Made by a program: the position numbers and the translations under genes. The notes beneath the pieces were generated by a model. It saw only the letters and a list, made by a program, of their open reading frames with translations. It was not told where the DNA came from and made no database searches. From the NCBI GenBank assembly GCA_022497155.1, contig MU385750.1:186001-250000 (forward strand): a stretch of DNA of 64,000 bases, given 5' to 3'. The first letter of the stretch is position 1. Every line of letters starts with the position of its first letter. The stretch comes from Whalleya microplaca (Eukaryota > Ascomycota > Sordariomycetes > Xylariales > Xylariaceae). Positions 24,568 through 55,160 of the stretch are shown here, in pieces.

Positions 24568-25872
24568 CGAGCTGTACAAATTACATACTTGCATGTATCA
24601 TGCACACATGGAGCGCGTCTGTGCCCGGGACACTGAATACCTGGGTACAGAGAACCACTGAATAACATAGGTTGTCATACAGTTTAGGGAGTGGACTGAC
24701 TGACTGATGGAGGGAGGCCTAGGTATCCACCACCCCATCAGTATGGTTACATAGGTATGTATGTACTATATATTCGCTCTCCTCTTGCCTGAACCGCGCC
24801 TCGATTCGCTCAACAATCGACTGGCTCAGCCTCCTCCCGTCCTGTAACCCAGTCAGCCAGGTCGCTCCAACAGTCCTATGTAGTGCCTAGGCATGTAATC
24901 CGTACGTAGTATCTCAAGGCTCCCTCAGGTGGCTGTGAATGTAGTTATATGTACTGCAGTGGTGCTGTGCTGCATGTGTCTACTACGTACAGTATCACCA
25001 ATACAACTTCGATGTCACCTCACAAGATCGCACGTCAATGGTTTGCTTCCTATGTCACTTCTGCCCCTTCTGCCGGCTTCTTTTGCCCTTCCGAGCTTGC
25101 GCTTATCTTTGACCTTAAGTCATCTTTCGTCGTCTTTCTGCCCAATCCAGCAACTGACGAGATTCCATTGCTGCAATCATGTCTCATCCTGCGCCTCACC
25201 CCCTAGCCTTATTCTCCCTAAGGCCCTTGAATGAACAAGCTCGAGATGTTGTCAAGCATCCATTCAATAAGCATTTCGTCTCGCGTTACGAAAATACATA
25301 TGCTCTCGACATCGGCCATGCCCAGCCAATCTCGGGAAGCAATGCTACCCTTGCCACGTTAGGTCGCAATGGCGATATTCTACTAGAAGGCCGCAGTATT
25401 TCAAAGATCCAGTGCTCGTTCGAGATCGATTACGAGACAAACATTGTCATGTTTTTTGACAGATCGCACAGCCAGACATGTCAAGTTTTCGGTCCAAATG
25501 CGAGACCATTTGAGTTTGGACGCCCTCGTAAAGTTGTCGTGTCAAGGGAGATAAACACGGTTATTGGCATTGGTGGTATAGGGAGGGACTTGATCCAATT
25601 TAGATTACATTGGCATGGAGCAGGGGATACTGAAACGGTAGAGAGGGTCGAGAAGCGAAAGAATGCCATCCTCGAGGAGAATCCCCGTTTCGCGCGAACG
25701 GTCGATGTCACGGACACAGCCCTACCGACTGGGATGGTGACCAGAATTCACGAGCCGGGACCTCGCCAACCAAAGATAAGAGCTGAGAGAGTGGGAGATC
25801 CGCTGGGGGTTGGGAGTTTTGGAAAAGTATATGCAGGTTTCAACGTGGACACAGGTCAATTGATGGCTATCA

Positions 25873-25880
25873 AGGTAGTA
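25873..25880. repeat. Target-site duplication, left copy
   Basis: AGGTAGTA immediately before the left inverted repeat; the right copy is AGGTAGTG. They differ by one G/A transition. A 9-bp reading (AAGGTAGTA/AAGGTAGTG) is possible if the element's last A belongs to the duplication. Confidence 0.75.
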
Positions 25881-26039
25881 TAGCCCACCTAAAACTCTCT
25901 CCCTTTTTTCCTAAAACTCCCCCCCTATCCACTTAATACTCCGCCATTATTTCGGATCATTTATTACACACCAAATTAGTATATAGATCAATGTCGATCT
26001 CTGATTTTTAAATGTAAATATAGTACGCGTTAGAAGTTA
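25881..26039. repeat. MULE terminal inverted repeat, left
   Basis: 159 bp; the reverse complement of 28996-29154 except for 11 transitions. Confidence 0.92.
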
Positions 26040-26779
26040 ACAAAATTTTTTCGAAATTAACATAAAGCTGCAACTTACTTGCAATTATAGTACCTTTTCC
26101 ACACACTTTCAATAATATATACCTTTAATAGCACATACCTTTAATAACACCTTGTCGGCGCTCGATTTCGAAACTATTATAATAACTATTTAATCCCTTC
26201 AATCCCTCCAACCGCCTTTAAATAGAAGTTACGCCTCTTAAATAAAATGTTATGACGCCATTTAAAATTACGCCTCTAAAAACAGTTATGCCCTTTAACT
26301 TAATCCTAAAAAAAAGTCACCCCGAACTGGCTAATATATTCGATACGAAATCAAATGTAATAAATTAAGTGTTTTTAAGTCTCGAACAAAAATCGGCAAT
26401 AAGGCAATCACTTTTAAAAAAACAAATTATCTTTTTAACGCTACCGCAAATATTTGTAATAATGCCTGCCATTATAAAACTATCGACCCTAAATATAACT
26501 ACCCTCTATCCAAATTACCTAAAAATCACTTTCGATATTAAATAATTACTAAAGTCTAAAAGAAATTAATCGAAAAATACGCCATCTATTAAAAGTCGGT
26601 CAGAAACATATAGATAAAGTTTTTTAACGCTAATCCCGAATGCCTCCTCCGCCTTAATAATATCGATAATTACGTTTAAACCTTCCGACAAAAAAACAAA
26701 AGTAACGTAACCGACATCTAAGCCCTCTTTATCGGCCTCCGGAATTAATAAAATATCTAACATAAGCTACGAATAATTT

Positions 26780-28200
26780 AAGGGAACCTTATAGGATTAT
26801 TTTAAGCTACGAAATAATTACAAAAGATATATAAACGTTACTTTAATATAATACTAATAAACTTAATATATATTATTAATAAATTTAACCTCCCTTTTTA
26901 TTAGATTAACGGCATTACAAGTATAGAGTTCCATTTCGGCATTAGCTACGTAATTTTAATAAATAAAACGGAAGACATGCTACTTTAGGTAATAAAGGCT
27001 TTAAATCAGCTACGCCGTAAGCTCGAAATTCCTCGTCAGCTATATATTATAATAACAAACTTCCAAACTTCCGAAAAAAACGCTATTAATACCGTATAAA
27101 ATAAGTTATAGTAGCAATTATATATATAGCATATTATAAAAAACGTTCGAGCCGGTATTCGAATATAATAAAAAGGCATCCTTCTTCAGAAATTTCGTCC
27201 GATTGTTGTCACCAGCTTATTATCCCCTAACGGCGTTATTTATTCCACGTAACGTATAAGCGAAAAAACCGCGGCGGCGTTACAAAATAAAGATATCGTA
27301 AAAGAGCTATTAGACTTAAATTTAACGTAATATTTAGCTAAAAAGGCTACCCGTATCAAATCCCGCTATTACAACAATAAGCCGGCTATCGAATATACCC
27401 CTAACAGCGTATTAACTTTATAAAGGCATATTACTTACATTTCGAGCGCCGAAAAATGTAAGGAATACTAACAGGACTTTAAAAAAACTTTTAAGGATTA
27501 AACAGCTATTGTTTTTTATTTTAAATACATTTATATAGAATTTCGGCAATAATAGTACTATTATTATATTAAGCGGTATCGAAATTATAGTATTATTAGC
27601 AGTTTAAGGTCCGAAAATAGTTATTACAAAATTCAGAACTATTTAAGTAATCCGCACGCTAATTTAAGCTTACTAATCGACACTATCGGCTCCGTTAACG
27701 AAATCAAGAAACGAAAATACGAAACAGCTTTTAGATATTAACAATAACAGCTTAATGCCGATTTATTAAATTATAAAATATTTTTAAATCGAGATATAAA
27801 GTTTAAAATTACGGCGCTAACGTTATTAGCAGCTTACCGGTAATACTGCCTTACTATTAACGCGTATAAAAAGGGATTACCTATTAGCACCTATTTAAGT
27901 AATTTCGAATAGCAAATAGATATACATTATTAGCATTATTTATATCATTATTTATTTATTATTATTAAAAAAAAAAATACAAAGACTATAGGTGCTCGGG
28001 AAAGTTAATATTTAAAAATGTCTGATTTTAATCCGCAACATTACCTTATAGTAAATTTAATAAATAATTCCTATATTAATTATACTGCTTAAATATTTTG
28101 CTAACTATATAACAATAAGCCGAAATAGATCTCTTCCTTTTTATCGGAAATCCTCTTACGCGCCTAAAGCACTATTTACGGCTATAAAATTAACGCATAC
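26780..28200 (+). pseudogene. MULE transposase, inactivated
   Basis: Reading one frame through its stops gives the MULE transposase core. N-L-I-Y-I-I-N-K-F-N-L-P-F (about 26860-26905) matches the D-x-T-Y-K-T-N-R-F-x-M-P block of fungal MULE/FAR1-type transposases. I-I-I-T-N-F-Q-T-S-E-K-N-A-I (about 27045) and the Q-L-Y-I-Q-H-I-I-K-N-V stretch match the second catalytic block and its following helix. In both blocks the expected Asp is now Asn (AAC), as G-to-A changes on RIP would produce. Dozens of stops make the protein non-functional. The exact N-terminus could not be placed. Confidence 0.8.
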
Positions 28201-28995
28201 GCGCCGAGACTTATATTAATAATAACTAAGTCCGGTTTTAATTATAATTTATTTAAAATAGAGGTTACCGAATGCTATTATACGAGAAATTTTTTCTAAA
28301 CAAAGATAGTGCCGCGAAAATATTAAAAAACGTTCAGCAAGTTAGCAACAGCTTGTAGCAGTAAACTACTGCTATAGAATTATATAAGGTTGTTAGAAAT
28401 TAATAGGTCGAAATAATTATAAAGTATATTTAAAAACACCTTAATACGTAACGATTAATAGTAGCGCTGCCAATAATGCTTTAGCCGATACCGCTAATAC
28501 CCCGGGGATTATATAAACTACCGCCGACGAAATCCGTAATACCTTCACTTTTAATCGGCCAATTGCCGCCGACTCCTCGACCGACAGAAATATTATTTCC
28601 GCCGCTACTACGCTTTCGGTAAATAGCTGCCGTAATACTAATAACGCCGACAATAAGCTTACAGCTATTATATCTATAATTATAATAAGGAGGCATAATT
28701 AACGGCTTAGGGTATTAAAGGCAACAACGAAATTAATAATAATAAAGGCAGCAATTAAAGTAGCGGTTAAGTCAGTAATAGGTTTAATAAAGTCGATATT
28801 TTAGCTATTATAATTAAATCTTTAAATAAATAACAACTCTAAATACCCAAAATAAAAAAATAATAAAATTTTATTATAAATTTAACGTATTATATAAAAA
28901 ACTGCTATATAAATTGAAAAAAACACAACTATTAAAAAATTGCGTGTCCTATTAACTCGGAATTAACATACTTAAATAGATCTGACAGATTCCCC

Positions 28996-29154
28996 TAACT
29001 TCTAACGCGTACTGTATTTATATTTAAAAATCAGAGATCGACATTGATCTATATACTAATTTAGTGTATAACAGATGATCCGAAATAATGGCGGAGTATT
29101 AGGTAAATAGGGGGGGAGTTTTAAGAAAAAAGGGAGGGAGTTTTAGGTGGGCTA
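28996..29154. repeat. MULE terminal inverted repeat, right
   Basis: 159 bp, paired with 25881-26039. Confidence 0.92.
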
Positions 29155-29162
29155 AGGTAGTG
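29155..29162. repeat. Target-site duplication, right copy
   Basis: AGGTAGTG directly after the right inverted repeat; it continues the kinase reading frame as V-V-K-R, so this copy preserves the original site. Confidence 0.75.
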
Positions 29163-30837
29163 AAGCGGCCATCCGAACCAGCAACGCAAAAGGAATTTAT
29201 GGACCTGAAGCGTGAAATAGAGATCCACTCCAAGATTAGCCACGTGGGTTAGCCTGCACAGAACTACTAGGTAGACACAGCGAGGACTGACGTGAACGCT
29301 AGGAACATATTGTGGAGTATCTAGGATCTCAGGATTGGGACCAACGCAACCCGATAATCTTCATGGGTCTAAAAGAAGGAACGCTAGCGTCATTAGCAAC
29401 AGGATGGTCTGGCTCTCTCGACGACCTTGCCTAGGTTGCCTTCCACCATATGCTCAAAGCAATCGACTTCCTCGGGGCAAATGGATTGATCCATCGAGAT
29501 CTAAAGCCGGAAAACATTCTCTATACATCGCGTCAAGGCCAATACCATTTCCAGCTCGGGGATTTGGGCTTCTGTAATCACGCTAATCTAGCAGCAACTG
29601 TCGGCGGCACCCAATTATTTGCGGCCCCTGAAATATATTATCGACAGAAGCAAACACACAAGATTGACGTTTTGGTCACTTTATGTCACGATATTGTGGA
29701 CACTTAATGCGGAAGGATTCCGTGAAGTATTGTGTAATTGTCAGAAACACGAGGATGTTTTTGATACCGTTGTACGTACGTCCAGGATGCAATATTACAC
29801 GCGTATTCGCGAAATGGCCATGGTTAACCCAGAAGAGCGCGCCTCCGCCGCCCAGATGCTTGTCAAATTCTTTGACGGAGATGGACTTACAACTCCACGT
29901 GCGCGAGTTCCACCCATCAGCCTCCCGAAAGACAGCAATGAGGTCCCGGCCATGAGTGCCGGCAACAGATCTCCTGCTGCAGCTAGCCCCGGCCCGACAG
30001 TACGAAAACGCAGAAAGGAAACAAACCGAGGCATCCCAAGTCCAATCACGCGTCCGCTTCGGTCTGACAAGTCTCGGTTTCCTCTGGAACAGATGAGACG
30101 GCCGCTGCCGTAGTGCCCAAAGAACATCCAGGGCAGTCCCATGGTTCCGAGGCCCCGGTAAGCCTACAAATACCCGGCTGTTATCCCGGCAACACTGAGC
30201 AGGATGGATAGTTTGGCAGGAATATAGGCCATCGAGCTATACAGGAGCTTCATACGACTCAGGAAGCATGATTGATAGGATAGTGTCAGTTGATGGTACA
30301 GCACCGTATAGTACTAAGGGGGATTTTTTTTTTTTTGAACGAGTGTTTTATTTCTAGTCGACTATTGGCTTGTCAGCCTTACGTTAGCCCTAGGCTTAAT
30401 TGAGATTCAACTTCAAATTCGAATTTGGCCAATTAGCAGGGTCAAGGAACTAGCTATCTGACTCACAAAAAGAAGGATGAGAGGTTGTAAAGGCAGAGAA
30501 AGGAAGAATGCTGTGCCACAAGCTCACCGAGATCTCTACTAATAGATTGTCGCTACGTGTTGTTGCGCACGACATAAGGCACCGGAATGTCACATAAAAA
30601 AATCTGATAGGCGAAGTATTAAGAAGGTTTTTCGTCCAGCCTTCCCCTTAGTTTACATAGTTGTAGCGTAGAGTTTAGCTGAAAGTAATGCCACTAGAAA
30701 GAAGCCTTTCTCATCTACGAGTCGAGGCTATGCAACAGGCTTAGTATATAAAAATGTAAGAATAAAGCTTAGCTAGCGGTATGAAAATGCTTGACAGTCT
30801 TGTCGCTATCAGGACATGAGGTAGATGTCAGAGCTCT

Positions 30838-34461: not shown

Positions 34462-37400
34462 TCAGATTGCCCCGTCAGCACGTTGGCCGTAGACGACGAC
34501 GGCCCCACCAAACCTTCGCTTTCCCGCCTTCCAAGCCTCTACTAATGCGATATATACAAATACGCACGCAGCCACAATAGCCCATTCGACATCTATCGCT
34601 ATATGCTTGAAGACGACTCTGTCTATTACAGGTAGGTAGATGACGGGGAACGTGATAATGAATCCGGCCAACACGGCGCCGAAAAGGAACTTGTTCCTCC
34701 ATACCGTCCGGAGCACGGAGAACGGGCCCCCGTAAATCTCGGGGTACATGTTGAACAGCGACCGCGTAAAATGTTTGACCTCCCAGGCGGTGAACAGGAG
34801 GAGAAAGCTAAGGGTGGCATAGGTGGTGGCGCGGGCGCGGAACACCTTGGAGCACGAGGGGTTGTACTCGGCGTTGCAGTCGTGGCCAAGCTCGACGCTG
34901 TTCGCCTGCGGCGTGTAGATGACGGAGACAAAGGACGCGATGCATAGCGACCCCATGAAGAACCCATAGGTGATCTTGTCGATGATGATCTCCGCGGTGA
35001 AGACGCCGATGCGCAGGTCGTGCGGCGGCCGGAGCATGATGTCGGGCTGAGCTTCCTCGAGGCCGAGTCCGAGTGCCAGGAACGAGGAGGTGATCAGGTT
35101 CGCCCACAGGATCTCTATCGGGGATAGGGGGAAGACGGATTTGTTCTCCGCGTCCTTAAAGGCGAGGCCAATGAGGAGGAGGAGGACCTGGGCGATGTTA
35201 GAAATCAGGAGATGGAGTACAAACTGTAAGATGTGTTAGCTTAATCGCATTGAGCAAGGTTAGACAACGGTGGTACTCATTACCTTCTGGATATTGTCGA
35301 ATAATCGTCGGCCTTCTTCGACGGCCGTAACTATCGACGCGAAGTTGTCGTCCGTGAGAACCATGTCCGCAGCCTCTTTAGCTACATCACTGCCGTTGAG
35401 ACCCATGGCGATGCCGACGTCCGCCTTTTTCAAAGCAGGGGAGTCATTGACACCGTCACCAGTCATAACGCAGAAGGCTCCCCGACGGTGCATTGCCTCG
35501 ACCATTCGCACTTTCGTCGACGGGCTACACCGGGCCAGGACAAGTGGGAGCTTATCTAGCCGGTCAATCTCCTCGTCGGCTAGAGCATCAAAGTCGGCGG
35601 CAGGCATGGTAGAGTTGGCAGCCTCAGCGGCGGTAAGGTCGCTTCCTAGAATACCAACCTCACGCGCAATCGCAGTCGCGGTTTTGATATGGTCGCCGGT
35701 AAGCATATGAACGGATATTCCCGCGATCTTGCATTTCTTCACAGCATCGGCTGTTTCCAGCCGAGGCGGATCGTAAAGCCCAGCAAGACCCAGCGGTGTT
35801 AAATCACTTTCAGCGACCTCACGGACGTCCTTGAGGGCATCGCTCAGTGCAACGGTCTTATGCGCAACACATAAGACCCGCAGGCCCTCGGCGGCGAGCG
35901 ACTCGGCTGTAGCGGTGAACTCAGCCTTCACTTTGTCGGACGCATCAAGCAGCGGTAGTACTGCTTCGAGCGCGCCCTTTGTGTAGACTTCGGCAATCGT
36001 TGAGTCAGGTGCAGAGTATACCACTGACATCCGTTTACACGAAGAGTCAAAGGGGTGTTCGGCGAACAGCTGCACCTCGTTGGCTTGTGAAACGGTAGCT
36101 TTGCTCATGCCAAATCGCATTGCGAAGACGTTCAATGCGATCTCAGTAGGTTCGCCGACGGCAGTCCAACTAGATACTGCGGACGTCGACATCGTCGAGG
36201 TTTCAGCCGTGTCATCGGCTGATATTGACTTAGCGTCCGTCACCGTAGCATTATTGCATAAGGACAGACACTCAACGAACTTTTTCGCGTAAGGGGGTAA
36301 CCGAGAAATTGACTTGAGCGAATCTAGCGATTTGGACATTTGATTGCTCCATGTGATCGTTCCATTGCACGGGTCAAAGGGGTGAGTGCACGCGTCGACA
36401 GTAGCTTCAGAGCCATCGTGAAGCCAGACTTTTCTAGTAATCATCTTGCCTTGGGTCAGGGTGCCAGTCTTATCAGAGCAAATATTGTTTACGCCACCAA
36501 CAGCCTCCAAAGCCGAAAGCTTCCGTACGACCACATTGCCCTTGGCCATCGCCTTCGTTCCAACAGCCATGCTAATGGTTAAAACAGCGATCAGAGATTC
36601 AGGAATCACGGCAACGCCGACGCAGATACCATAGATGAGAACTTCGTCATCGATCTCCCAGCGACTGGTGGAGAAGACGATCACAGCAAGTAGAATTGCA
36701 AGTGCAAAGAGGAGCAAGGCGAACTTGCTCAGCTTGACCTGAAGGGGCGTGCCGTCCAAACCCAAGATACTGCGGGTACCGGCCTTCACGCGTTTCCAGT
36801 AGGCAGCTAATGGAGACAGCTCTTCACCAGAATTAGGATTCGCGCGAAGTAACTCAGCAATCTTGCCGACTTCGGTAGTCATGCCCGTAGCTGTGACGAT
36901 ACCTGTGCCTCGGCCGCGTGTGATAGTACTGGCAGAATATAGCATGTTCACTCGGTCACCGAGAGGAACTTCAGCTTCGTGCAGGACAGATTCTGGATGC
37001 TTGCTAATCGGCAGCGATTCTCCGGTCAGGAGTGCCTCGTCAGTAGACATGTTCAATCCGTCGGCCAAGCGAAGATCTGCTGGGACGATGTCACCAACGT
37101 TCAGAAGGACGATGTCACCTTTGACAAGCGATTCTGCCTTGATCGTGATGATATGCTCCGAGCGAACGACTTTGCATGTTGGGGCGGATAATGCATAAAG
37201 AGACTGTATGGTCTGTTCAGCACGGTAGTCTTGAATAAGCCTATCTATACTTAGTTTATACTACGCAATAGAGTCAATCTGCCAAATAAAGGCAGCAATG
37301 GCACTGGGTGAAAACGTACCCGACAACAATATTGAGTAGGATGACAGCAGCAATGACGCCGCCCTCGATGAAGTCTGAAATGGCAAAGGAGAGAGCCATG

Positions 37401-37768
37401 ACAAGAACGAGGACCATTGTCAAGCTGTTCGACACCTGTCTCAAGAGTATCTTCCACACGGATAGCCCTTTAGCTCCCTCAACTTTGTTTGGCCCATCAT
37501 GCTCCAGGCGATGAGCAGCCTCACTGCTAGTGAGGCCATTATTGACGTCGGTTTTGAGAAGCTGTTCTAAGTTCGCGACTGAGACTGTGTGGGGCTCAAG
37601 GATCTTTTCAGCTACGACAGAAGAAATATTCTCTTCGTGTAGGAATGGCTTTAGGTTAGTACTTGAAACTCTAGCAGTGATACTAGAAATTGTCCCCTGG
37701 GTTTCATTGGTCAAGCCACATATAGGAGGTTCAGTCGACTCGACAGCAGGTTGGTCTTCTATACCCAT
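34462..37768 (-). CDS. ENA-type (P2D) Na+/K+-exporting P-type ATPase
   Basis: Three exons: complement of 34462-35223, 35284-37240 and 37320-37768, 1,055 aa, about the normal length for fungal ENA pumps. Introns of 79 and 60 bp have GTACGT/GTAATG donors and TAG/CAG acceptors, and phases agree. Motifs: an N-terminal cation-ATPase region (L-T-S-S-E-A-A-H-R-L), T-G-E-S at 222-225, V-I-P-E-S in helix 4 at 361-365, the phosphorylation site D-K-T-G-T at 406-410, K-G-A at 571-573, M-L-T-G-D-H at 662-667 and T-G-D-G-V-N-D-S-P at 743-751; four to six C-terminal helices follow. The helix-4 P-E-S and the I-C-S-D-K-T-G-T-L-T-Q-G-K-M context are typical of the ENA branch, which exports Na+ or K+ at the plasma membrane at high pH or salt. 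Ion specificity is inferred. Intact, although it sits next to decayed sequence. Confidence 0.92.
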
Positions 37769-39505: not shown

Positions 39506-40951
39506 CTATAATTCAACGCTCCAGCGGTTCACAACTTCATTCAGCGTCTCTGCCGACCCGACGTTCCCAGGGAATACAACATAAGGCAAGCCGGGCCACT
39601 TCGCCGTTGGCTCGTCGCATCTCCAAAGCGGCACCCCCGGCGCGGCCTGCCCGATAATCATCGCGCGCCTCATCCTCAACCCCTTCGTGGCCATATCCGA
39701 CGACGTGATGCCGCCTTTCGCGACCACGTACCGCGGTCTAGTCGTCAGCCCCACGAGGAAAGAAACCAGAGCCTGCGCTACCGCGGCGCCGATGTCGAGG
39801 CTCTTGGCCTCGTCTGCGCCGGTCACGAGTTCGCGGCTAGTCATGATAAGCACGTCCTGGCCACGTGCGATCTCCCGTTCGGCGACTTCGATAGCCCTCT
39901 GTGTTTCTTCTAGGGTTAGTTCGCTCGATCCAAGCAGCCTTCGGACGTCGATCACGACACTTGTTAACTTGTCCCCACTCATGGCCCTTAGCTTTTCCAA
40001 CTGCGCCGTCGTCTTAGGGACGTAAGACCCGGCGATAACTAATCCACCCGCAGCGCTCGAGAGGTCGAGCTTTTGAGCCGAGATCGGCGGAATCTGTGCA
40101 ATGCCGAGGCGTGCAGAGACGAAGGCGGCGCCCGTCCGGAAAAGATAGCGCTTGTTCTGGCGGGCGGCCTCGAGCAGGGCTAGGACCACCACATCGACGT
40201 CTTCCTCCGCGGCTGCGTTCACCACTATCACTGTTCCCTTCGCGACGCTGGTCAACTGTTGCAACACCGCGTCTTTACCTCCTGCTCGGATCGTGTCGAG
40301 GCTCAAAGATGTCACCTTCTCCTGAGGAATGCCACCCTTGCTTTTCTCCAGCACATATTCCCGCAAATTCGAGCTCTTGTACCCGAACGTAGCGTCCTTG
40401 GCGAACGGCGTTTGTGCTGCTGGGACTAGGGCGTCGCCTTCCGCGACGTAGTGGACGTCTCCGATAGTGTACCTCCCACCCTGCAAGAAGAACGGACACA
40501 GGAGCCAGGCGTTCGCTACGCCTAGGACGTCTTCCGCTGCCTCGGCTTCCAGGGGGAAGTGCCCGCGCAATGTCGAGTCTCCTCGTAGCACGATTTCGAA
40601 GTGGGTGTTAGTCTCTTGGGAAGCCGCCTTCAGATTCGTGCATATCTCAGTGATGAGTACGCGCGCTGGTCCCGGATGCAGGGCCCGCGAGTTCGTGAGG
40701 ATAAAGAAGCCACCCCCTGGTTGCGTGGTCCTGAATTCGGATATTAGCGTCGGCACGTCCCAAACTGTTAGCACAATGATATCATGGCACGTTTGGGTGC
40801 CTGTCGGATCGTCATCTAATGCCACAAGAATCGGGATCTTAGAATCGGTGTTTTTCAAGAGATATTGGACCTGCCCGCGCACGTCTGTCGTTGGTGCAGG
40901 CGGAAGTCCAGCAAGCGTAGACTTAAGACTCAGGGAAGTGTGTGAAGCCAT
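39506..40951 (-). CDS. Four-carbon acid sugar kinase family protein (DUF1537)
   Basis: Intronless, 481 aa from the ATG at 40951 (MASHTSLSLKS); the five codons upstream lack an ATG. The N-terminal domain has the family signature A-L-D-D-D-P-T-G-T-Q-T at 44-54 and R-G-D-S-T-L-R-G-H at 123-131. The C-terminal nucleotide-binding domain has A-G-S-Y-V-P-K-T-T-A-Q-L, then V-A-K-G-G-I-T-S-S-D, and ends near V-F-P-G-N-V-G. Length matches bacterial and fungal members. Characterised relatives phosphorylate four-carbon acid sugars such as threonate or erythronate, using ATP; the fungal substrate is not established. Bacterial members sit with dehydrogenase and epimerase partners; none is visible here, though a VOC-domain gene lies 370 bp upstream on the same strand. 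Confidence 0.88.
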   Translation of the reverse strand: MASHTSLSLKSTLAGLPPAPTTDVRGQVQYLLKNTDSKIPILVALDDDPTGTQTCHDIIVLTVWDVPTLISEFRTTQPGGGFFILTNSRALHPGPARVLITEICTNLKAASQETNTHFEIVLRGDSTLRGHFPLEAEAAEDVLGVANAWLLCPFFLQGGRYTIGDVHYVAEGDALVPAAQTPFAKDATFGYKSSNLREYVLEKSKGGIPQEKVTSLSLDTIRAGGKDAVLQQLTSVAKGTVIVVNAAAEEDVDVVVLALLEAARQNKRYLFRTGAAFVSARLGIAQIPPISAQKLDLSSAAGGLVIAGSYVPKTTAQLEKLRAMSGDKLTSVVIDVRRLLGSSELTLEETQRAIEVAEREIARGQDVLIMTSRELVTGADEAKSLDIGAAVAQALVSFLVGLTTRPRYVVAKGGITSSDMATKGLRMRRAMIIGQAAPGVPLWRCDEPTAKWPGLPYVVFPGNVGSAETLNEVVNRWSVEL

Positions 40952-41318
40952 ATTCGTCAACTTCACACAATGGTGTCATTCATGGTCATCTATCTACGGC
41001 AGACCATCGATAATAATTCATAGCTTAAATAGATAAATCATGCGTACCAGTCAGAATTGGACTTGAACATTCGCAACAAATCCGATGAGGGGCCTGCGGT
41101 GATTTTAAGCAAGCTCTGGTAAGCTCTACTAAAAGTTACAGCTTCGGTTTGTTGTGTAGAACTAGATATCGGGAAGCAAGCCGAGAGGTCTCGGAAAACT
41201 TGCCGGCGGCAAGTTGCCGGGGCCCTACTTCTACCGCTATTGTGCCAATGCCGATGTGCGCCGTCTTCGCTGTAGAGACTCAACTGGGTATCGCATATGT
41301 ATTCCAAGCAAATTCAAG
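40952..41318. other. Short intergenic spacer
   Basis: 367 bp between two minus-strand genes, containing the kinase-family gene's promoter and the VOC gene's 3' UTR. No additional gene; the frame at 41038-41307 has no domain. Confidence 0.5.
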
Positions 41319-41762: not shown

Positions 41763-44241
41763 GGTTGGTTATAGGTAGGAAAGCTCAAAACCAACGTATC
41801 TAAACACAGGTAGGCTTTACATTTGACAGATTGTGAAAGAAGTGATGTTGACTAGAAATAGAGAGATAGCTTGAAGGGGTGATACCTGTACAGCATTTCA
41901 GGGTAATTATTGTGTCTTTTATACTTCAATAGCTAAGTAATTAAACTCTAACGCCATTAGCCTCGTACCTTGACATTGTACTGTTAAGCAAGCTACCACT
42001 TCAATCGCTATTAACTAACTGATTTAAGGGTCCATTTGGTACTGATACTTAAGTAGCCTATTGTTTTCTATACATATACACCTATCTTGGAAGAATCTAT
42101 ACCTTTCTACATACTTGAAGTAATTTGCACCAGTTATCGGACTGTATATCAGCTACGGATGACGTGGTTTTATTCGTACCGAAAAGCACAATAAATACCC
42201 CTGAGTGGTGTATAGTATATGCAATTGCAATTGAGGGATTCGCGCGGGTATCAATGACGCACCACGGGCAGATAGGTTACAGGGAACCCCAGCCAATATG
42301 CATGTATGTGCCAACCAGACACTCAACCCCTAGCATTATTACGTAGTACAGTACTGCGGTGGCCGGTTCCTCACCACTCGCCAATAATCGATAGCAGTTT
42401 AGGTTGCTCGTCCTGTCAATCTCTAGAGTACTGCAGACTTTGAACTTTTATTAGTATGTTCTTGGTTACGGAGTATAAGTGGCCCCATCTGTCGTCGACG
42501 GCAGGGGAGGGTAGGCAAGAAGATGAGCTTAATGGCCGCGTCTAGACTCGTGGGGAACCGGGAACCCAGACGCCCATGAATTACGACGCTAGCCAGCCAT
42601 AAACCCAGTTATACGCTAAGCCTTATCTCCTAACCATCCATGCGAGTTACGCAGTATAGATCTTAGTCTTGATGGACGCTATCCATGTCCCCGTGTCACG
42701 TCGATTCATAGATGGTTTCTAGTCTCCGCTGAAGCCTACGTGAACTTGACTTGGCCATATTAGCGTGCGTGCCGTTATTGGAGTTAACCTTGGGCTAATA
42801 GAAAACAGCAAATTGGAGCATTGGGCCAGTAGGTCTGTCCATTTCGTGCAAAGTCGACGCGCGTAACACATTACAATGCCTTGAAACGTGTTAGGTAGTG
42901 CTATGGATGGTGCTACAATGCGTTTCCGAGTCCTGATCTAGAGGATCTAGAACTTGAACAGCATGGACTAAAGCCATCTCTAATGCTGCACTGCCATGAA
43001 GCCACCGAGCATTGGGTTTGCGATATTTCAACTCCATTTGATCTAGTTGTACTAGGCGTTGTCCGACCAATTTTCCGTATCGTCTTCTTTTAGGCCCAGC
43101 CCATCCTAAAGCGGGCCATGAATTTGCATCGGTGGATATCGTTTACTGAACCAGGCTATCCGCTTTATTCTACTTGATAATAATGATGTTGTGGGGTTGT
43201 CACCTTCCATTATCCCCCTAGTCAGGTTGCTGGCCCCGAAGTTAGTATAGTGGACTGGTAGGTTGGCGAAGTTCAGCTCAGCAGGCTTTGTAAGCAACGG
43301 ACATAAACTGTTGCCTCTGGTGTAAATATTACCCAAGCAGGAAATGGTAATCAGGTAATCATTAAGATCAGAGTACGAATAGCATAGTCAATGGATGTCC
43401 ACGGTAAGGACGTGAAGTGCATGGTTAGATCAATTGAGTCTATGACTCTATTCAAGCTGAACTGATAGAATATGTGAGGTCGGGATCTATTACATCGAGG
43501 GCTCTCTTGTATCTAATCCCACTCTTTCCCTTCTTCCGTCAACTGACCTTTAGAAACCCTTGTTCATCTCTATGGTCCCCTTGAAAGATATGCTTTCATT
43601 TATCTTAACGTCACCACTATCGACCTCACCAATGTGTTACAGTGCTATGTATGTCCTAGTAACTATAAGAAGGGTGATGCTACGTTTTTAATTACTCATA
43701 CAAAGTTAACTTATTTGGTATTGTTGATCGTCACGCCTGGGGCTCATGTTATTCCAGGAAAGCTCTGGGAAAATGGGATAACATGCTTAGTGACAAGTTC
43801 AACTGCACTGCCAGTGTGACACACAGCCATAGGAGCGGGATAGCAGCCCGTCCCGGTCGTACCAGCGGCGACAACCCTTCTCTGACCGGAAAATAGTGGT
43901 CAACTCATCCGACTCAGACCTAGGTGAGAGATTGTCCCGTAGCCGCTCAATGGAACCTAAATATTGGCGCGAAGCCAGTATGAGAATATCGAGGGCTTCC
44001 TGATCGCCCAACGTTAAGGGGACTGGTCGAACAGGGATGTTAAGCAGGACTTCCCAGGTCTCAGCTAAGCTAATATGATAAAAAATGATAAGTTGCAGTA
44101 GGTTGTCAGAGGTGAAGAAAGCCGGGTAGACCGAATGGTGTCAAATGGATCAAGAGCTTGCGTGACATGGGATTCATCTTGGCACTTGTGCAAGGATTTA
44201 AGCACCTTCCATCTCGAGCTTAACAAAGAGTGGTATAATAT
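41763..44241. other. Spacer before the AT-rich block
   Basis: 2.5 kb, normal composition. No supported gene apart from a possible decayed frame at 43799-44139. It ends abruptly at the LTR at 44242. Confidence 0.45.
43799..44139 (-). other. Possible decayed coding remnant
   Basis: A minus-strand frame without a convincing ATG reads L-A-E-T-W-E-V-L-L-N-I-P-V-R-P-V-P-L-T-L-G, then G-D-Q-E-A-L-D-I-L-I-L-A-S-R-Q-Y-L-G. Its composition is protein-like, and a stop lies directly upstream. Family not recognised. It lies 100 bp from the gypsy LTR and may be a truncated gene. Confidence 0.3.
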
Positions 44242-44469
44242 TGTTTTGGGATAGGGTGTCAGGGTAAAGGAGGTGCCACTTTATAGCTTAACTAATCGGA
44301 AGTAATTAAGGCGATAAAACAAAAAGAGTCATTTATAACGGCGATTGATCGAAAGGAGAGATATATCTATTCTCGGCGATAAGGCCGTCTGAGCTATATG
44401 TGTTTTATTTGAAAATAAAAGAAAAAAACAAGCGATATATATATATTACAATATACTAGCCCTATAACA
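44242..44469. repeat. LTR 1 (3' LTR of outer element)
   Basis: 228 bp, starting TGTTTTGGGAT and ending ATAACA on the plus strand, so it keeps TG...CA ends. Aligns to LTR 2 and LTR 3 over its full length. Confidence 0.92.
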
Positions 44470-47400
44470 TTTTTCCTAAATTTTGTTATAAATATCTTTA
44501 TTATAAAAAAATCTAATTAATTAATACAAACGCGGAAAGTATTTACCTCATTTATTTTTTAAAAGCTTTCGCTTTAGGTTTAATTGCCTTTTTTTTTTAT
44601 TTAATTTTATATATTTTTTAATAAACTTACGTTATTTTATACGTTTTAATCGATTAGGCTTAATAAAAAAAGGAATTTTCTATCGATTAATAATAGCTAT
44701 ATATTTTTTATAATCTGCTTAATTATTTTATTCTATAGGAAAAGTAAGCTATAATTATTTTTTTAGCGCGGTAAATTTATTTCTTACCTATTTATATAAA
44801 ATATAAGCTTTCTTATTTCGATAAGTAGCTTTTTGTTGTTCTTTTAGAAAAGGTTAATATTAATTAAGATTTAAAAAACTTATATAAGTTTTATATAATT
44901 TAGGCTAATGTCGGGATATTTTTTTCGCTTAAAATAGGCTGGGGGCAAAAATAAGCTTAGGTTCGGGTTCTTATTTTAGTTTATTAAAGCTATCGGGTTA
45001 ATTAATAACCCTATAAACTATTGTTCGCTTTATTTTCGTAATCTAGCTTTTTATTTCTCGTTTTTCGTTAATAAAATAAGAATTTTTATAAAGGCGAAAA
45101 AATATAGTAAGGAAACGAAAAAAGCAAAAAATTAAATAAGCTACTTAAAAGCCGTAATTAAACTTATTTTATTATTATACTGTCTAAATAAGTTTAATAT
45201 AAACAAAAACTATATTATTTTATTAAATTTAAATTTAGCGTAATCGATTAAAAATAGCCCGAACTTTTTCTTTACTATAAGTATTTATAAAGTTAAATAA
45301 AAAAGTAATATAAGTTTTTATTAATATAACGATTAAAAAAAAATAAAAGCTACTTTTTTTTTTAATATTAATAGCTATAAAGTCGTATAAATATATAAAT
45401 GCCGTTAATATAAAAAACCGGAGGTTATTTAAAACAATCCGAAAAAAAAACTGGTTGTTAATTTAAGTAATTTTTTAATTAAGCTTTATAATAGTCCTAA
45501 AGTAAACCTTTATTTTAATAAGTCTTTTTTTAAAAGTGGCAACATTTATTTAAATTATAATAGTTATAAAAGTAATATTGTAATATTAACGCTTATAATA
45601 AATAAAAAAAGCATTATATAAATTTAATACTCTATTTATTTTTTATTTATTTTTATTATAATTAGGAGGGGCGTTTTAATTAAAAATAATTTTAAGTACT
45701 TTATCGCTTCTAACTAATAAAAAATTTATTTTTAAGGAATCGATAATCTGCTTAATTTTTTACTTTAAATATTATAGCCTATTTTTAGTCTAAAATTTAA
45801 GTCCGTATATTTTAATAAAAAAGCCGCAAAATTAATTAATAATATAAAAATAATATTAGCTGCTATAACAAACGTACTAAAATCTAAAAAGAAAAACTAC
45901 TTTTATAAAAGCGAATTAATAAGTAAGATTATTTTAGCTTTATATTTAAGGTCGGAATTAGCCGCAAACTTAATTTCAGCCTCATTTTTAAGTGTAGCCT
46001 TAAACTTAATATCAGCTTTCGAGGCAGGCTTAGGGTTTTTACAGGCCGCTTAATTAACCTTTTTATTTTTATTCCGGTTTTTATACTTATTTTTTCTTTT
46101 TTTAGGTAACTTTTTAAATTGTAACAGCTATAACGACATTTTAATATATAAAAAATAAAGTTTAAAATATAATATTATAATAATAAGCTAATATAAAATT
46201 ATAAAAAAACTAAACTAATTAATTAAAAACAATAAAAAGTAAGGAAAAAAAATTAACAGATAATTAGGTAAGAATTATTAATAAATTAATATAAAAAAAA
46301 CTTTTTTACGCCAGGTTTTAATTTATAATAAATAAAAATAAGTTAGGAAATCTTTTCTATCTTTAATTAATTATTTAAATTTATAATAAACTAAATATTA
46401 AATATAGTAAGATATTTAAGTCGTTATTACTAATTTTAAAAGTCGGCTTATTCGATTTAGCTTTAGTACGTTTTTTAGGCTATTTATTATACCCTTTATT
46501 TATTTTATCTTTATATTTTATACTTTTTTTTTTAATAATTACTAACTTAACTATCTATCCTTTATTTTCGCTTTATAATATTTATTTAATTAATTATTTA
46601 CAGTTATATTATAAGGCTTATTATTATATAAAAAGCAAAAAAAAAAAGGAACTCCTTTTATTAAGCCTTTACGTAAGTCGTCCATTCCTTTTTCCTTTAT
46701 AAAAAATCCTATATTTAGAAGTTAAATTTCTTATTATAATAGCGTTAATCGAAAGCTAAATAACCTTAAACGTTTTTATCGGGTTATAATAGTTCGTTAA
46801 AATTTAATAAATATTTAGGATAAAACGCATATCGGCAATCCTTTTTTTAAAACTCGTAAAGCAGATATTAAACCCCCGTTATTTAATTAAATTAAATCTT
46901 ATTAAAATAACCCTAATTTCTGTAATCTTTTTTCTCGACTTTTTTATCCTATTTTATTCTATTATTACTTCCTTTTTAAAATAGGTAAATCGGCTATATA
47001 AACAGCTAAAAACTTTCGTCGTTTCTTTTTTTCTATCGATTTATACCCTAGCGTTAAGCTTCCTTTACGTTTTAGGTCTGCTGTTTTTAAGCAATCGAAA
47101 ACTCCTAACTCGATAGTAAAAAACGTTAATCGTATTTTTAATCCCTATTTTAATATTAAACCTAGTCGCTTTAATTTAAAGACTAATAAAAATAAGCTAT
47201 TTTAATTTTAGAAAAATAATATAAGCCGCTACTTTTTAAAAACTAATATAATAAATAAGTTTATTCGGGTAAGTCTCTTCTTTATTTAATATATATAACT
47301 TTTATTAATTAATATAAAATAATTCGACTAATAAAAATTAAACTCCTTAATAGTCCTAAGGAAAGTCGGTATTATATTTGGGAATTTATAGCCTCGAAAT

Positions 47401-48439
47401 TCTGTCGTAAAAATTAAATATAAAAGCTTGCTTTAAAATATATTAAATATTTTAAAATAACGAAATACCTTTTTAATTAACGACACCCTTTTTTTATCGA
47501 GATCCGTAAAACTAACCTTATTAATAACTTAATATTTCGCTTAATCGAAAATCGCCGTATATAATTTGGAGTCTTTATTTAAAAATATAATACTTATAAT
47601 AAAATCTTTTGCCGGCTTTACGAAAATCGGTTCATTAGTTTTAAAAATAAGCGCTATAATAGAATATAGCTATTTTATAAATATCGATTAATAAAAAGCT
47701 AGTTCGGGAGTTTATATAAGAATTATATAATCGGTATTTAAACAAATAAATATTCGTTCCGGGATAAAAAATATACACATTTACAAGCTTATCGATCGAA
47801 AGATCTTTTTTTTAATAGCGATATTAATTACGACAATTCTACTTTAATAAGTCGTTTTATAGATAATATATATCTAGGCTAAATTACTAAAAAAATCCGT
47901 CCTTTTTTACTAAAATCGTAAGCGGCTTTATTTATAGCTCGCAATAGTTTCTTTCGTTTAATTAATTAATTATATATTAAAATTTACGGTTATATTTTTT
48001 AATTTAAGCTTCTTTTTCTTCATTATTTTTTTATATCTGCCGTAACCTTATAAAACCTTATTTTTATAAAATATCAATTTATATAAAACGTAAAAAAAAA
48101 TAATCTAATCTATTAATACTATTTCTTTAATACTCGATTATAGATTTCTCGCTCCGCTAATAGTATCCCAGGTAGTCTAACTTTAACTATTCCTTTAAGT
48201 ATTTTATTTTTTATAATCTTCCAATCTTTATTAGACTTAACTTTTTTAATTTAGCTATAAATTACTGGGCCTTTTTATATATTTTTATTTTAATATAGCA
48301 TATTATTATCTGCTAATTTAAAACTTTCTTAATTATTTCCTATTTTATTATAACTATTTAATTAATAATTATTATAAGATTTGTTAAGTTCCTAATACTT
48401 TTTTATATTTCGAATAAATCTTTTTAGTCGATTAAAAGA

Positions 48440-49700
48440 AAATATTTTTTATAATATTACCCCGTCCAATTTTTTAAAAAAAAACCTATTTTATTTTTAT
48501 TTTTTCGCAATTCGATAAAGCTTAGTCTACTTATATTTTAGCTTTTTATTTTTAAATATATCGATATTTCGTATTATATTATAAAATAAAATTAGGCTAC
48601 CTTACTTTAATAGTTTTAACCGTTTTTTTAATAAGTATTATCAATTATTTCGTTCCGCCGCTTTTTTTCGTTTCTTTATTAAAATTTGTGCCACTTTTAC
48701 GACATTTTTATCTTATCGTTTAAATATCCTTACCTTTTTAGTAATAAGATCTTTTTTATTATAAATATCCGACTAATTAAGAACCTATTAAAATAATAAA
48801 ACTATTTCGATCGGTATAATAAATCTTTTATTATAAACTAATTTATATAATATAAACCTATATTTTTATATAAACGTTCGATTAGCTTAAAATATAATTT
48901 TAAGCTTTTTAATCTATAATTTACTAATTTTTTTCGTTATACGTATAAGGGATCTTATAATCGGTCGATAGCCTATCTTTATTTATTTTTACGTCTAAAA
49001 ATAATATACGGGTCCGACTTATATTTTAACACTTAGCTATATAATATTTTCAGCTACTTTTGCCTTATTTTTTAAGCCTTTATCGCATTTAATTATTATA
49101 AAAATACTATAGTTAGTATAAATATAATCCCAAAAGAATTTTTATATCTTAATTACTATAGCATTTTTTAATGCTTTAGTTTTAGGCTACCTTAATAGCT
49201 TATCTCTTATTTCGATAATAGCCGAATATTTATTATCGTTCGGGAAAAATTAAATATTAATAATCTAAATAATTAGTAACTATTTTAGCATTAAAAAAAG
49301 TTCTTAATTTTTAAATCGTTTATTTATAAAAAGCTAATATTTTAAACAATATTTAATAGCAGTTTAAATCTCTTAATATATCTCTTTTTAATAATAAAAC
49401 TTAATTATTTTATTATAAGTCGATTTACGTTTTCGATACGTTTTAACTTTCGAATAATAGTCTTTAATAATACGCTTTCGTTAATTAATATTATTAATAA
49501 TACACCGTTAGTTATATTTCTTATAAGATTTCCGCTATAAAATTTCCTTTTAAATTACGTATTTAATAGCCTTATTCCGGAAGCTTGCTTTTATACGATA
49601 TTATTTTATTATATTAAAACCTTTTAGTCGATTAGATAACTTTAGGGTATTAAAATATATTACGATTTTTTAAGAAGTTTTAGACTAACTTTCTAGCGGG
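48440..49700 (-). pseudogene. Integrase and GPY/F domain, outer element
   Basis: Same order and sequence as 53900-55160 of the inner copy, displaced by 5,462 bp, with independent transitions. The integrase ends in the A-D-R-T-like stretch and the GPY/F-like block. Not functional. Confidence 0.7.
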
Positions 49701-49703
49701 TAT
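49700..49703. repeat. GTAT target duplication, left copy
   Basis: GTAT before LTR 2; the partner is 61194-61197. The same GTAT is uninterrupted at 55169-55172 inside the inner element. Confidence 0.8.
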
Positions 49704-49931
49704 TGTCTTGGGACAGGGTGTCAGGGTAAAGGAGGTGCCACTTTATGGCTTCGCTAATCGGAGGTAATTAAGGCGACGAAACAGAAAGAGTCACTTATAA
49801 CGGCGATTGATCGAAAGGAAAAATGTGTCTATTATCGGCGACGAGGCTGTCTGAGCTATATATATTCTATTTGAGAGTAAAAGAAAAAGACAAGTAATAT
49901 ATATGTGCTACGGCATATTAGCTTTATAATA
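49704..49931. repeat. LTR 2 (3' LTR of inner element)
   Basis: 228 bp, TGTCTTGGGAC to ATAATA; the terminal CA has become TA, as RIP would produce. Confidence 0.92.
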
Positions 49932-52900
49932 TCTTTCTTAGATTTTATTATAAATATCTTTATTACAAAAAAATCTAATTAATTAATACAAACGCGGAAA
50001 GTATTTACTTTATTTACTTTTTATAAGCTTTCGCTTTAAACTTAATTGCCTTTTTTTTTTATTTAGTTCTATATACTTTTTAATAAACCTATGTTGTTTT
50101 ATACGTTTTAATCGATTAGGCTTAATAAAAAAAGAAGTTTTCTGTCGATTAATAGCAGCTATACGTCTTTTATAGTTTATTTAATTATTTTATTTTATAA
50201 GAAAAGTAAGCTATAATCGTTTTCCTAATGTAATAAACTCATTTTTTACTTATTTATATAAAATATAAGCCTTCTCATTTCGATAGGCAGCTTCTTATCG
50301 TTCTTTTAGGAGGGGTTAATATTAATCGAAATTTAAAAGACTTATATAGGCTTTATATAATTTAAGCTGGCGTCGGGATATCCTTTTCGCTTAAAATAAG
50401 CTAAAGGTAGGAGTAAATTTAGGTTCGGGCTCTCGTTTTAGTTTATTAAAGCTATCGGGTTAATTAATAACTTTATAAGCTACTATTTGCTTTATTTTCG
50501 TAATCTAGCTTTTTATTTCTCGTTTTTTGTTAATAAAATAAAGATTTTTATAAAGGCGAAAAAATATAATGGGGAAGCGAAAAAGGCGAAAAATTAAATA
50601 AGCTACCTAAAAGTCGTAATTAAACTTATTTTATTATTATATTATTTAAATAAGTCTAATATAAACAGGAGCTATACTATTTTATTAAACCTAAACCTAG
50701 CGTAATCGATTAAAAGTAGCCCGAGCTTTTTTTCTACTACAAGTACTTATAAAGTTAAATAAAAAAGCAATATAAATTCTTACTAATATAATAATTAAAA
50801 AAAATAAAAGCTGCCTTTTTTTTTAACGTTAGTAGCTATAAGGTCGCGTAAATATATAAATGCCGTTAATATAAAAAACCGGAGGTTATTTAAAATAATC
50901 CGAAAAAAAAACTAGTTGTTAATTTAAATAACCCTTTAATTAAGCTTTACAATAGTCCTAAAATAAACCTCCGTTTTAATAAGTCTTTCCTTAAAAGTAA
51001 CAACACTTATTTAAATTATAATAGCTATAGAAGTAATATCGTAATATTAACGCTTATAGTAAGTAAAAAAAACATTATATAAATTTAGTGCTTTATTTAT
51101 TTTTTATTTATTTTTATTATAACTAAAAGGGGCGTTTCGATTAAAAATAACTTTAAGTACTTTATCGCTTCCAACTAATAAAAAATCTATTTCTAAAAAA
51201 TCGACAATCTATTTAATCTCTTGCCTTAAGTGCTATAGCCTATTTTTAGTCCAAGATTTAAGTCTATATATCTTAATAAAAAAGCCGCGAAATTAATTAA
51301 TAGTACAAAAGTTAATATTAGCTGCTATAATAAACGTACTAAAATCTAAAAAAAAAAGCTGCTTTTATAAAAGCGAACTAATAAGTAAGGTTATTCCAGC
51401 CTTATACTTAAGGTCGGAATTAGCCGCAAACTTAATTTTAGCCTCGTCTTTAAGTATAGCCTCAAACTTAATATCAGCTTTCGGGACAGGCTTAATATTT
51501 TTACGAGCTGCTTAATTAACTTTCTTATTTTTGCTCTAGTTCTTATGCTTATTTTTCTTTTTCTTAGGTAACTTTTTAAACTATAATAGCTATAATAACA
51601 TTTTAATATATAAAAAATAAGGTTTAAGATATAATATTATAGCGACGGGCTAATATAAAGCTATAAAAAAACTTAATTAATTAATTAAAAATAATAAAAA
51701 AAAAGGGCAAAAAATTAATAGGTAATTAAGTAAAAGTTATTAATAAATTAATATAAAGAAAACTTTTTTACGCTAAGTTTTAGTTTATAATAAATAAAGG
51801 TAAGTTAAAAAGTCCTTTCTATTTTTAATCAGTCGTTTAAATTTGTAATAAGCTAAATATCAGATATAGCAGGATATTTAAGTCGTTATTACTAATTTTA
51901 AAAGTCGGCTTACTCGATCTAGCCTTAATACGCTTTTTAGGCTGCTTATTATACCCTTTATTTATTTTATCCTTATATTTTATACCTTTTTTTTCTTTTA
52001 ATAATTACTAACCTAACTATCTATCCTCTATTTTCGCTTTATAATATTCATTTAATTAATTATTCGCAATTATATCGTAAGGCTTATTATTATATAGGAG
52101 GTAGAAAGAAAAAAAAGGAACTTTTTCTATTAAGCGTTTGCGTAAATTATCTATTCCCTTTTTTTTTATAAAAGGTCCTATATCTAGAAGCTAAATCCTT
52201 TATTATAATAGCGTTAATCGAGAGCTAAATAACCTTAAACGCTTTTATCGGGTTATAATAGTTCGTTAAAATCTAATAAATATTTAGGACAAAACGTATA
52301 TCGGTAATCTTTTTTTTAGAATTCGTAAAATAGATATTAAGCCCCCGTTATTTAATCGAGTAAAATTTTATTAAAATAATTCTAATTTTCGTAATCTTTT
52401 TTCTCGATTTTTTTATCCCGCTTTATTCCACTATCGCTTCCTTTCTAAAATAAGTAAATCGGCTATACAAATAGCTAAAAACTTTCGTTATCTCTTTTCT
52501 TTTATCGATTTATACCTTAGCGTTAAATTTTTTTTGCGTTTTAAGTCTGCCGTTCTTAAACGGTTGAGAACTTTTAGCTCGATAATAAGAAACGTTAATT
52601 ACGTTTTTAATCCCTATTTTAGTATTAAATCTAATTACTTTAATTTAAAGATTAGTAAAAATAAGCTGCTTTTATTTTAAAAAAATAATATAAGCCGCTA
52701 CTTTTTAAAGGCTAATATAATAAATAAATTTATCCGGGTAAATCTTTTTCTTATCTAATATATATAACTATTACTAATTAATATAAAATAATTTAACTAG
52801 TAGATATTAAACTCTTTAATAGTTTTAGAAAAAGTCGGTATTATATTTAGGAATTTATAGCCTCAAAATTCTATCGTAAAAATTAAATATAAAAGCCTGC

Positions 52901-53880
52901 CTTAAAATATATTAAATATTTTAAAGTAATAAAATACCCTCTCGATTAACGATATCCTTTTTTTATCGAGATCCGCAAAACTAACCCTATTAGTAACTTA
53001 ATATTTCGTTTAATTAAAAATTGCCGTATATAATTTAAAGTCTTTATTTAAAAATATAGTACCTATAATAAAATCTTTTGCCGGCTTTGCGAAAATCGGT
53101 TTATTAGTTCTAAAAACGGACGCTATAATAAGATATAGCTATTTTATAAATATTAATTAATAAAAAGCTAGTTCGGAAATTTATATAGGAATTATATAAT
53201 CGGTATTTAAGCAAATAAATATTCGTTCCGGGATAAAAAATATACGTATTTAAAAGCTTATCAATTAAGAGATCTTTTTTTTAATAGCGATATTAACTAT
53301 AATAATTTTACTTTAATAAATCGTTTTTAAAGTAATACGTATCTGGGTTAAATTACTAGGGAAATCTATCTTTTTTTACCGAAATTATAGGCGGCTTTAT
53401 TTATAACTTATAATAGTTTCTTTTATTTAATTAATTAATTATATACTAAAATCTATATTTATATTTTTTAATTTAAGCTTCTTTTCTTTTATTACTCCTT
53501 TATATCTGCCGTAACTTTATAAAACCCTATTTTTATAAAATATTAATCTATATAAAATATAAAAAAAAATAATCTAATTTATTAATACTATTTCTCTAAT
53601 ACTCGATTATAGGTTTCTCGCTCCGTTAATAGTATTTTAAGTAGTCTGATTTCAACTATTCTTTTAGGTATTTTATCTCCTATAATTCTTTAATTTTTAT
53701 TAGGCTTAACTTTTTTAGTTTAGCTATAAGTTACCGGGCTTTTTTATATATTCTTATTCTAATATGCCGTATTATTATCTACTAGTTTAGCGTTTTTATA
53801 ATTATCTCCTATTTTATTATAACCACCTGACTAATAGTTATTATAAGGCTCGCTAAGTTTCTAATACCCTTTTATATTTC
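49932..53880 (-). other. Unassigned 3' region of the gypsy element
   Basis: About 3.9 kb between the end of the GPY/F domain and the 3' LTR. At 51500-51590 a minus-strand frame gives a lysine-rich stretch (L-P-K-K-K-K-N-K) followed by acidic/basic repeats, so some coding capacity is suggested, but no domain could be named. The same region is present in the outer copy (44470-48420). Confidence 0.5.
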
Positions 53881-53899
53881 GAACAAATCTTTTTAATCG

Positions 53900-55160
53900 A
53901 TTAAAAGAAAATACTCCTTATAATATTACCCCGTCCAATTTTTTAAGAAAAAACCTATTTTATTTTTGTTCTTTCGTAATTCGATAGGGCCTAATCCATT
54001 TATATTTTAGCTTTTTATTTTTAGATATATCGATATTTCGTGTTATATTATAAAATAAAACTAGGCTGCCTTATTTTAATAGTTCTAACCGTTTTTTTAA
54101 TAAGTGTTGTCGATTATTTCGTTCCGCCGTTTCTTTTTGTTTTTTTATTAAAATTTGTACCACTTTTGCGATATTTTTATTCTATTATTTAAATATCCTT
54201 ACTTTTTTAGTAATAAAATTTTCTTTATTATAAATATCCGACTAATTAAAGACCCGCTAAAATAATAAAACTGTTTCGATTAATATAATAAATTTTTTAT
54301 TATAAACTAATTTATATAATATAAACTTATATTTTTATATAAACGTTCGATTAGCCTAAAATATAATTTTAAGTTTTTTAACTTATAATTTGCCAATTTC
54401 TCCCGTTATATATATAAGGGATCTTATAATTAATTGATAGCTTACCTTTACTTATCCTTATGTCTAAGAGTAATATGCGGGTCCGATTTATACTTTAACA
54501 CCTAGCCGTATAACACTTTTAGCTACTTTTGCCTTATTCTTTAAGCCTTTATTATATTTAATTATTATAGGGATATTATAGTTAGTATAGATATAGTCCC
54601 AGAAGAACTTTTATACTTTAATTACTATAGTATTTCTTAGTGCCTTAGCTTCAGGCTACTTTAATAGCTTATTTCTTACTTTAATAATAGCCGAATATCT
54701 ATTATCGTTCGGGAAAAACTAAATATTAATAATCTAAATAATTAATAACTATTCTAACGTTAAAAAAAGTCTTTAATTTTTAAATCGTCTATCCGCAAAA
54801 AGCTAGCATTTTAGACAATATTTAACGGCAGTTTAAATCTCCTAATATATCCCTTTTTAGTAATAAAACTTAACTATTTTATTATAAGTCGATTTACGTC
54901 TTCGATATGTTTTAACTCTCGAGTAGCAGTTTTTAATAATACGTTTTCGTTAATTAATATTATTAACGACACGTTATTAGCTATATTTCTTATAAGGTTT
55001 CCGCCATAAAATTCCCTCTTAAATTATATATTTAATAGCCTTATTCCGGAAGCTTATTTTCGCATAATGTTATCTCGTTATATCAGAACTTTTTAGTTAA
55101 TTAGGTAGCTTTAGGGTACTAAAATATATTGCGATCTTTTGGGAAACTTTAGACTAGTTT
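53900..55160 (-). pseudogene. Integrase and GPY/F domain, inner element
   Basis: Read through stops, the minus strand gives the gypsy integrase C-terminal core: a Y-Q-L-I-I stretch, A-N-R-T-F-I in place of A-D-R-T, then L-V-Y-N-K-K for L-V-Y-G-R-E and I-E-T. It is followed by S-L-V-L-F-Y-N, K-L-K-Y-K-W-I-R-P-Y-R-I and L-D-G-V-x-L-x-G-V-F-S-F-N-R-L-K-R-F, the GPY/F block in which G of GPY is now R. Many G-to-A and C-to-T changes. Confidence 0.75.

Follow-up and report, generated by a model that had tools for sequence, protein, structure and literature searches.

A readable junction between a Mutator-like element and a split FHA-kinase gene in Whalleya microplaca

How does a gene come to lie in two readable halves on either side of a mobile element, and was it the element that killed it? 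This question is raised by a protein kinase gene on contig C41 of the 48-Mb assembly of Whalleya microplaca, which we analyzed within a stretch of 64,000 nucleotides (the window). The gene combines a forkhead-associated (FHA) fold with a kinase domain. It is split by an element of 3,274 bp just 3' of the codon for the ATP-binding lysine, and both kinase halves are in frame up to the element boundaries. We consider it almost certain that a Mutator-like element (MULE) sits in the kinase domain of this FHA-kinase gene, flanked by a near-perfect 8-bp duplication containing the codons that follow the ATP-binding lysine. The whole chain of events set out below, with this insertion as the first lesion, we regard as probable. 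The locus is composed of the following parts (RIP, repeat-induced point mutation).

25179..25880, plus strand: exon 1, 234 codons, with an FHA-fold domain (about residues 5–160), a linker, and kinase N-lobe strands with the G-rich loop and the AIK lysine
25873..25880, plus strand: left copy of the 8-bp target-site duplication, AGGTAGTA
25881..29154, plus strand: RIP-mutated MULE, 3,274 bp, with its transposase remnant on the plus strand in the kinase sense
25881..26039, plus strand: left terminal inverted repeat, 159 bp, which supplies the stop codon of exon 1
26866..27144, plus strand: remnant of the MULE transposase domain (PF10551, 37.4 bits against a cut-off of 27.6, stops read as residues)
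28996..29154, minus strand: right terminal inverted repeat, 159 bp
29155..29162, plus strand: right copy of the 8-bp target-site duplication, AGGTAGTG
29154..29243, plus strand: exon 2 piece KVVKRPSEPATQKEFMDLKREIEIHSKISH, which extends the kinase N-lobe as far as the intron and begins on the element's final base
29244..29302, plus strand: 59-bp intron at ISH/GT, where many homologue reading frames enter theirs
29303..29671, plus strand: exon 3 up to the frameshift, with HRDLKPEN (29492), DLG, APE (29624) and the nonsense codon TAG (29432)
29673..30113, plus strand: exon 3 beyond the frameshift, with the remaining kinase C-lobe, a C-terminal tail and a stop codon at 30111–30113

Exon 1 is free of stops and frameshifts over its 702 bp and closes with the codons ATC AAG GTA GTA (I K V V). 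The TAG that terminates this open reading frame (25881–25883) coincides with the opening three bases of the left inverted repeat. Beyond the end of the right repeat, the sequence continues with AAG GTA GTG AAG CGG (K V V K R), the leading A of which is the final base of the repeat itself. The 8-bp flanks agree at seven of eight positions, and agreement at 7/8 or better has a chance probability of 3.8e-4 under equal base frequencies. Their sole difference is G/A in a TpG/TpA context and is not polarisable. An earlier note on this DNA had placed the end of exon 1 at the element's first bases, two codons past the ATP-binding lysine, and had the frame resume past the right repeat with duplicated codons. 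The sequence agrees on both counts, the duplication being matched at 7/8.

Downstream of the element, the frame reads KVVKRPSEP...KISH, is interrupted by the intron and resumes with EHIVEYLGSQDW... As the earlier note had also claimed, the intron, HRDLKPEN and APE are intact in this half, and its lesions amount to a single TAG nonsense codon and a single frameshift near 29669–29675. The eukaryotic protein kinase motifs (G-loop, AIK lysine, HRD, D(F/L)G, APE) are all found, distributed across both sides of the element. The 15-base junction sequence given in that note occurs once in a DNA search confined to the window, at the right boundary.

The state of the gene before insertion can be read from its homologues. 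A search with exon 1 found 38 homologues in addition to the query (P0002–P0039), among them named proteins of Pleurostoma richardsiae (65% identity), Ilyonectria robusta, Clonostachys, Colletotrichum, Trichocladium, Thermothielavioides and Apiospora. The junction is passed in 34 of the 38, and exon-2-like sequence follows in 32; P0033 and P0036 continue past the junction without it, and four homologues end before the junction or failed to align there. Many of the open reading frames continue to ISHVS or similar, which is the intron site of the window, and eight of the 38 are full-length kinases. The earlier note had proposed a readable pre-insertion state and comparison with orthologues as its test; in a comparison of this type, the continuous homologues support it.

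What is the inserted element? When its interior is read through, the PF10551 MULE transposase domain scores above its cut-off, and the same domain is found at 28.8 bits in the interior of a related copy on contig C8. In the available text of PMC6446971, MULE target duplications are given as 8–11 bp. The element thus has a MULE transposase domain, long terminal inverted repeats and a target duplication within that range: it is a MULE. The inverted repeats are identical at 148 of 159 positions, all 11 differences are transitions, and six of these lie, by eye, in CpA/TpG contexts that are not polarisable. These differences and the G/A difference of the flanks look as RIP would make them. An 8-bp target duplication is typical of hAT elements, and a hAT identity was considered for this reason; it was rejected because the transposase domain is that of a MULE and the inverted repeats are long. 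With the fungal element Hop and other MULEs, the element has in common the PF10551 transposase, long inverted repeats and an 8-bp duplication, but its transposase is RIP-damaged and is recognizable at the level of MULE, not of subfamily. Both MULEs and miniature inverted-repeat transposable elements (MITEs) are known in filamentous ascomycetes, as Hop and as mimp in Fusarium, according to the available text of PMC3599309. A literature search for Mutator-like transposable elements in Xylariales found nothing.

A search of the same genome with the left end of the element gave 38 matches, including the query and its partner repeat, and 30 of the 38 were retrieved. Short elements were chosen by both termini, with at most 3 mismatches in 17 bases per end. 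Among the retrieved loci, 13 MITE-like elements of 475–540 bp, all within L005–L029, carry TAGCCCACC-type termini and are 79–98% identical to each other. Exact 8-bp flanking duplications surround nine of these elements, and one more has a 6/8 match. Since the relatives with exact duplications fix the element ends, the duplication in the kinase gene can be taken as 8 bp, matched at 7/8. The short elements resemble the MULE in their termini and duplications but are too short for such a transposase. They suggest fairly recent movement by a transposase of the MULE's family. Relatives of the interior were found on C8 (71% identity), C80 (73%) and C91 (72%), all with 25–26% G+C and RIP-like indices. 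The C8 copy has GCCCCACC termini and, by eye, a duplication of about 9 bp that is one base off register on the right and falls in the size range given for MULEs; the C91 fragment gave no Pfam match at E <= 0.1 in three frames.

More distant matches to the element end, on C36, C11, C64, C70, C49, C13, C6 and C3, begin at query position 3–4, and one of this group (L031) starts with CCCACC. These are likely to form another MITE subfamily.

The element bears the marks of RIP. Its interior has a TpA/ApT ratio of 1.26 and a (CpA+TpG)/(ApC+GpT) ratio of 0.57, against 0.58 and 1.26 in exon 1 and 0.70 and 1.19 in the 3' part of the gene. Since the first index is raised and the second lowered so sharply in the element, the flanking exons appear to have been largely spared. 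The residue at the nonsense codon varies among homologues, and RIP leakage is no more than a possible source of that codon. The earlier note had held that the insertion is recent relative to RIP. This claim could not be upheld: RIP is able to act soon after a duplication arises, and all three interior relatives are AT-rich with RIP-like indices. RIP provides no clock.

We now turn to the protein that was disrupted. A predicted model of the exon 1 product finds its best fold match in the FHA1-kinase part of Rad53, in the same arrangement as in Rad53 1–466, and the window protein is accordingly modeled with an FHA fold. With a MULE domain above cut-off in two copies and a model closest to Rad53, the description in the earlier note of an FHA-kinase gene dissected by a MULE stands. 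Sequence searches see little of the FHA part. Among the scanned family members, 14 of 34 match Pfam FHA at E <= 1 (weakly; best 1.1e-4), and precomputed Pfam annotation lists FHA in none of the 38 homologues. Exon 1 searched against the PDB by sequence matches mainly kinase N-lobes (best E 0.0019), with no FHA chain among 55 matches at E <= 1, so that the fold comparison was needed. The FHA phosphothreonine-binding motif usually has a His and an Asn-Gly; by eye, these seem to be replaced by Q78 and S/Q in this kinase family. The order of FHA fold and kinase N-lobe is shared with the Rad53/Cds1/Chk2-type kinases, but identity to Rad53 in the fold matches is 12–17%. Because the kinase of the nearest named homologue matches chains of ULK3, MAP3K2, TAO3 and STK10 best (best 60 of 581 matches), orthology to Rad53 is not claimed. 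A literature search for lineage-specific FHA-domain kinases in Sordariomycetes found nothing. The gene points to a family of FHA-kinases in filamentous ascomycetes whose FHA domain is mostly missed by profile searches.

One other close relative of the gene was found in the assembly, at C4:156971–157891 (52% identity over residues 175–462, with the full P. richardsiae protein as query). This relative has two in-frame stops between ISH and PHIV; they fall at the position of the window's intron and are therefore read as intronic, which leaves the kinase domain open. A tblastn search with 39 family proteins (E <= 0.01) found no FHA part in the 10 kb around it (L045, C4:150001–160000). Next to it lies a decayed relative (44% over residues 34–244, two stops) of the gene that neighbors the split kinase at C41:

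22017..23795, minus strand: divergent neighbor gene of 592 aa without a Pfam match at E <= 1

The C4 pair occupies about positions 5536–8068 of L045 in the same divergent arrangement as at C41. Since kinase relative and decayed neighbor occur together, the most plausible reading of C4 is an old duplication of both genes, after which the FHA part would have disappeared there and the neighbor decayed; at C41, the neighbor and the FHA part would have been retained and the kinase lost. Among the best candidates in the assembly, which were the ones scored, none is an intact FHA-kinase of this family. The remnants are complementary: the FHA part was found at C41 only, and an uninterrupted kinase domain of the family at C4 only. 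If a free FHA protein of 234 aa from C41 and an FHA-less kinase from C4 were both still made, targeting and catalysis would be separate products of two loci, a division of labor that we consider very improbable.

The history that we favor begins with cut-and-paste transposition of the MULE into a still intact gene. Translation would then have ended at the element's first three bases, so that the product would lack helix C, the catalytic loop and the activation segment. The element would have been mutated by RIP, with the single-copy flanks mostly spared, and the 3' half, free of constraint, may then have acquired its nonsense codon and frameshift. At most, a protein of 234 residues could still be made, with the FHA fold and the first kinase strands but no catalytic core. 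The earlier note had predicted an FHA-only product of this length; the length holds, but ~30 residues at the C-terminal end belong to the initial strands of the kinase N-lobe. The preserved state of the 3' half is in keeping with a fairly recent death of the gene.

Could the gene have been dead before the MULE arrived? A pseudogene already carrying the nonsense codon or the frameshift, into which the MULE later landed, would account for the two further lesions in the 3' half, and the decayed duplicate pair at C4 suggests that the family is dispensable in this lineage. We compared the pieces of the gene with seven of the eight full-length homologues (P0033 was left out). Identity to P. richardsiae is 65% in exon 1, 70% in exon 2, and 66% before and 50% after the frameshift in exon 3. 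In all four pieces, the branch of the window gene is longer than the branch of P. richardsiae, the nearest named homologue: the factor is about 1.35 for exon 1 and 1.5 to 2.1 for the 3' pieces, a weak hint of earlier death. Against this, exon 1 is uninterrupted, and residues invariant in the seven homologues are retained at 68 of 71 positions in exon 1 and 53 of 57 in the 3' pieces, so that decay is slight whichever lesion came first. We regard a gene dead before insertion as possible but rather unlikely. The same counts (3/71 against 4/57 deviations) leave neither half clearly more decayed. They fit recent death and give no order of lesions, and the claim of the earlier note that the insertion probably killed the gene is not borne out by them. 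A base-calling error behind the frameshift or the nonsense codon would reduce the number of real lesions and is compatible with insertion first. Such errors are common at homopolymer runs, and the frameshift sits at a short one; the nonsense codon lies outside any homopolymer, and we consider this explanation improbable.

The boundaries also allow a reading in which splicing removes the element. They read AAG/GTAGTA on the left and CTAAG/GTAGTG on the right, and the duplicated AG/GT could serve as a 5' splice site on the left and a 3' AG on the right, restoring the original codons if the element were spliced out as a transposon-derived intron. We take the donor at the left boundary to be weak by consensus. 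Moreover, the intron would be ~3.3 kb, the spliced message would still contain the nonsense codon and the frameshift, and AGGT occurs in none of the nine exact duplications of the short relatives; splicing is therefore extremely unlikely. Introners in other eukaryotes are known to recruit splice sites from target duplications, but the families of ascomycetes are reported to have neither inverted repeats nor duplications, in the available text of PMC9860276. The element shares with introners an AG/GT insertion site that gives potential splice sites at both ends; unlike them, it is long and lies upstream of a broken frame.

Several observations weigh against a MULE insertion into an intact FHA-kinase gene. 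The duplicated flanks match at 7/8 rather than 8/8, and three of the 13 short elements (L011, L012, L027) lack an in-register duplication, the flanks of L012 and L027 agreeing over 7 bases after a one-base slide. TpA/ApT is also high in the short relatives (1.31–1.49), so that this index alone is no proof of RIP and is partly a property of the element family. Neither a nucleotide orthologue nor an empty site was found, the DNA search for the empty site covering the window. A protein search with the damaged transposase read-through (residues 230–430) gave no match at E <= 0.001. A single Foldseek match reaches E <= 0.001, and Pfam FHA was not found in the window protein at E <= 1.

The wreck of the gene is well preserved, yet this is an ordinary route of fungal gene death; neither gene loss by a MULE nor such an FHA-kinase family is surprising in kind. 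The value of the locus is that the loss of a single gene to a MULE can be read cleanly, in a genome that shows RIP-like decay, and that one assembly contains the target sequence together with the element family and its small relatives.

The surroundings of the gene are mixed. A conserved neighbor at 39509–40966 (minus strand) shares 84% identity with a Xylariaceae sp. FL0662B protein; Pseudomassariella and Seiridium follow among the named matches (best 120 of 7,997). Reading frames in several pieces at 34462–37768 (minus strand) are presumably P-type ATPase-like, by the look of their sequence. An AT-rich block with ~19–30% G+C and RIP-like indices occupies 44200–64000 of the window, starting ~14 kb beyond the kinase.
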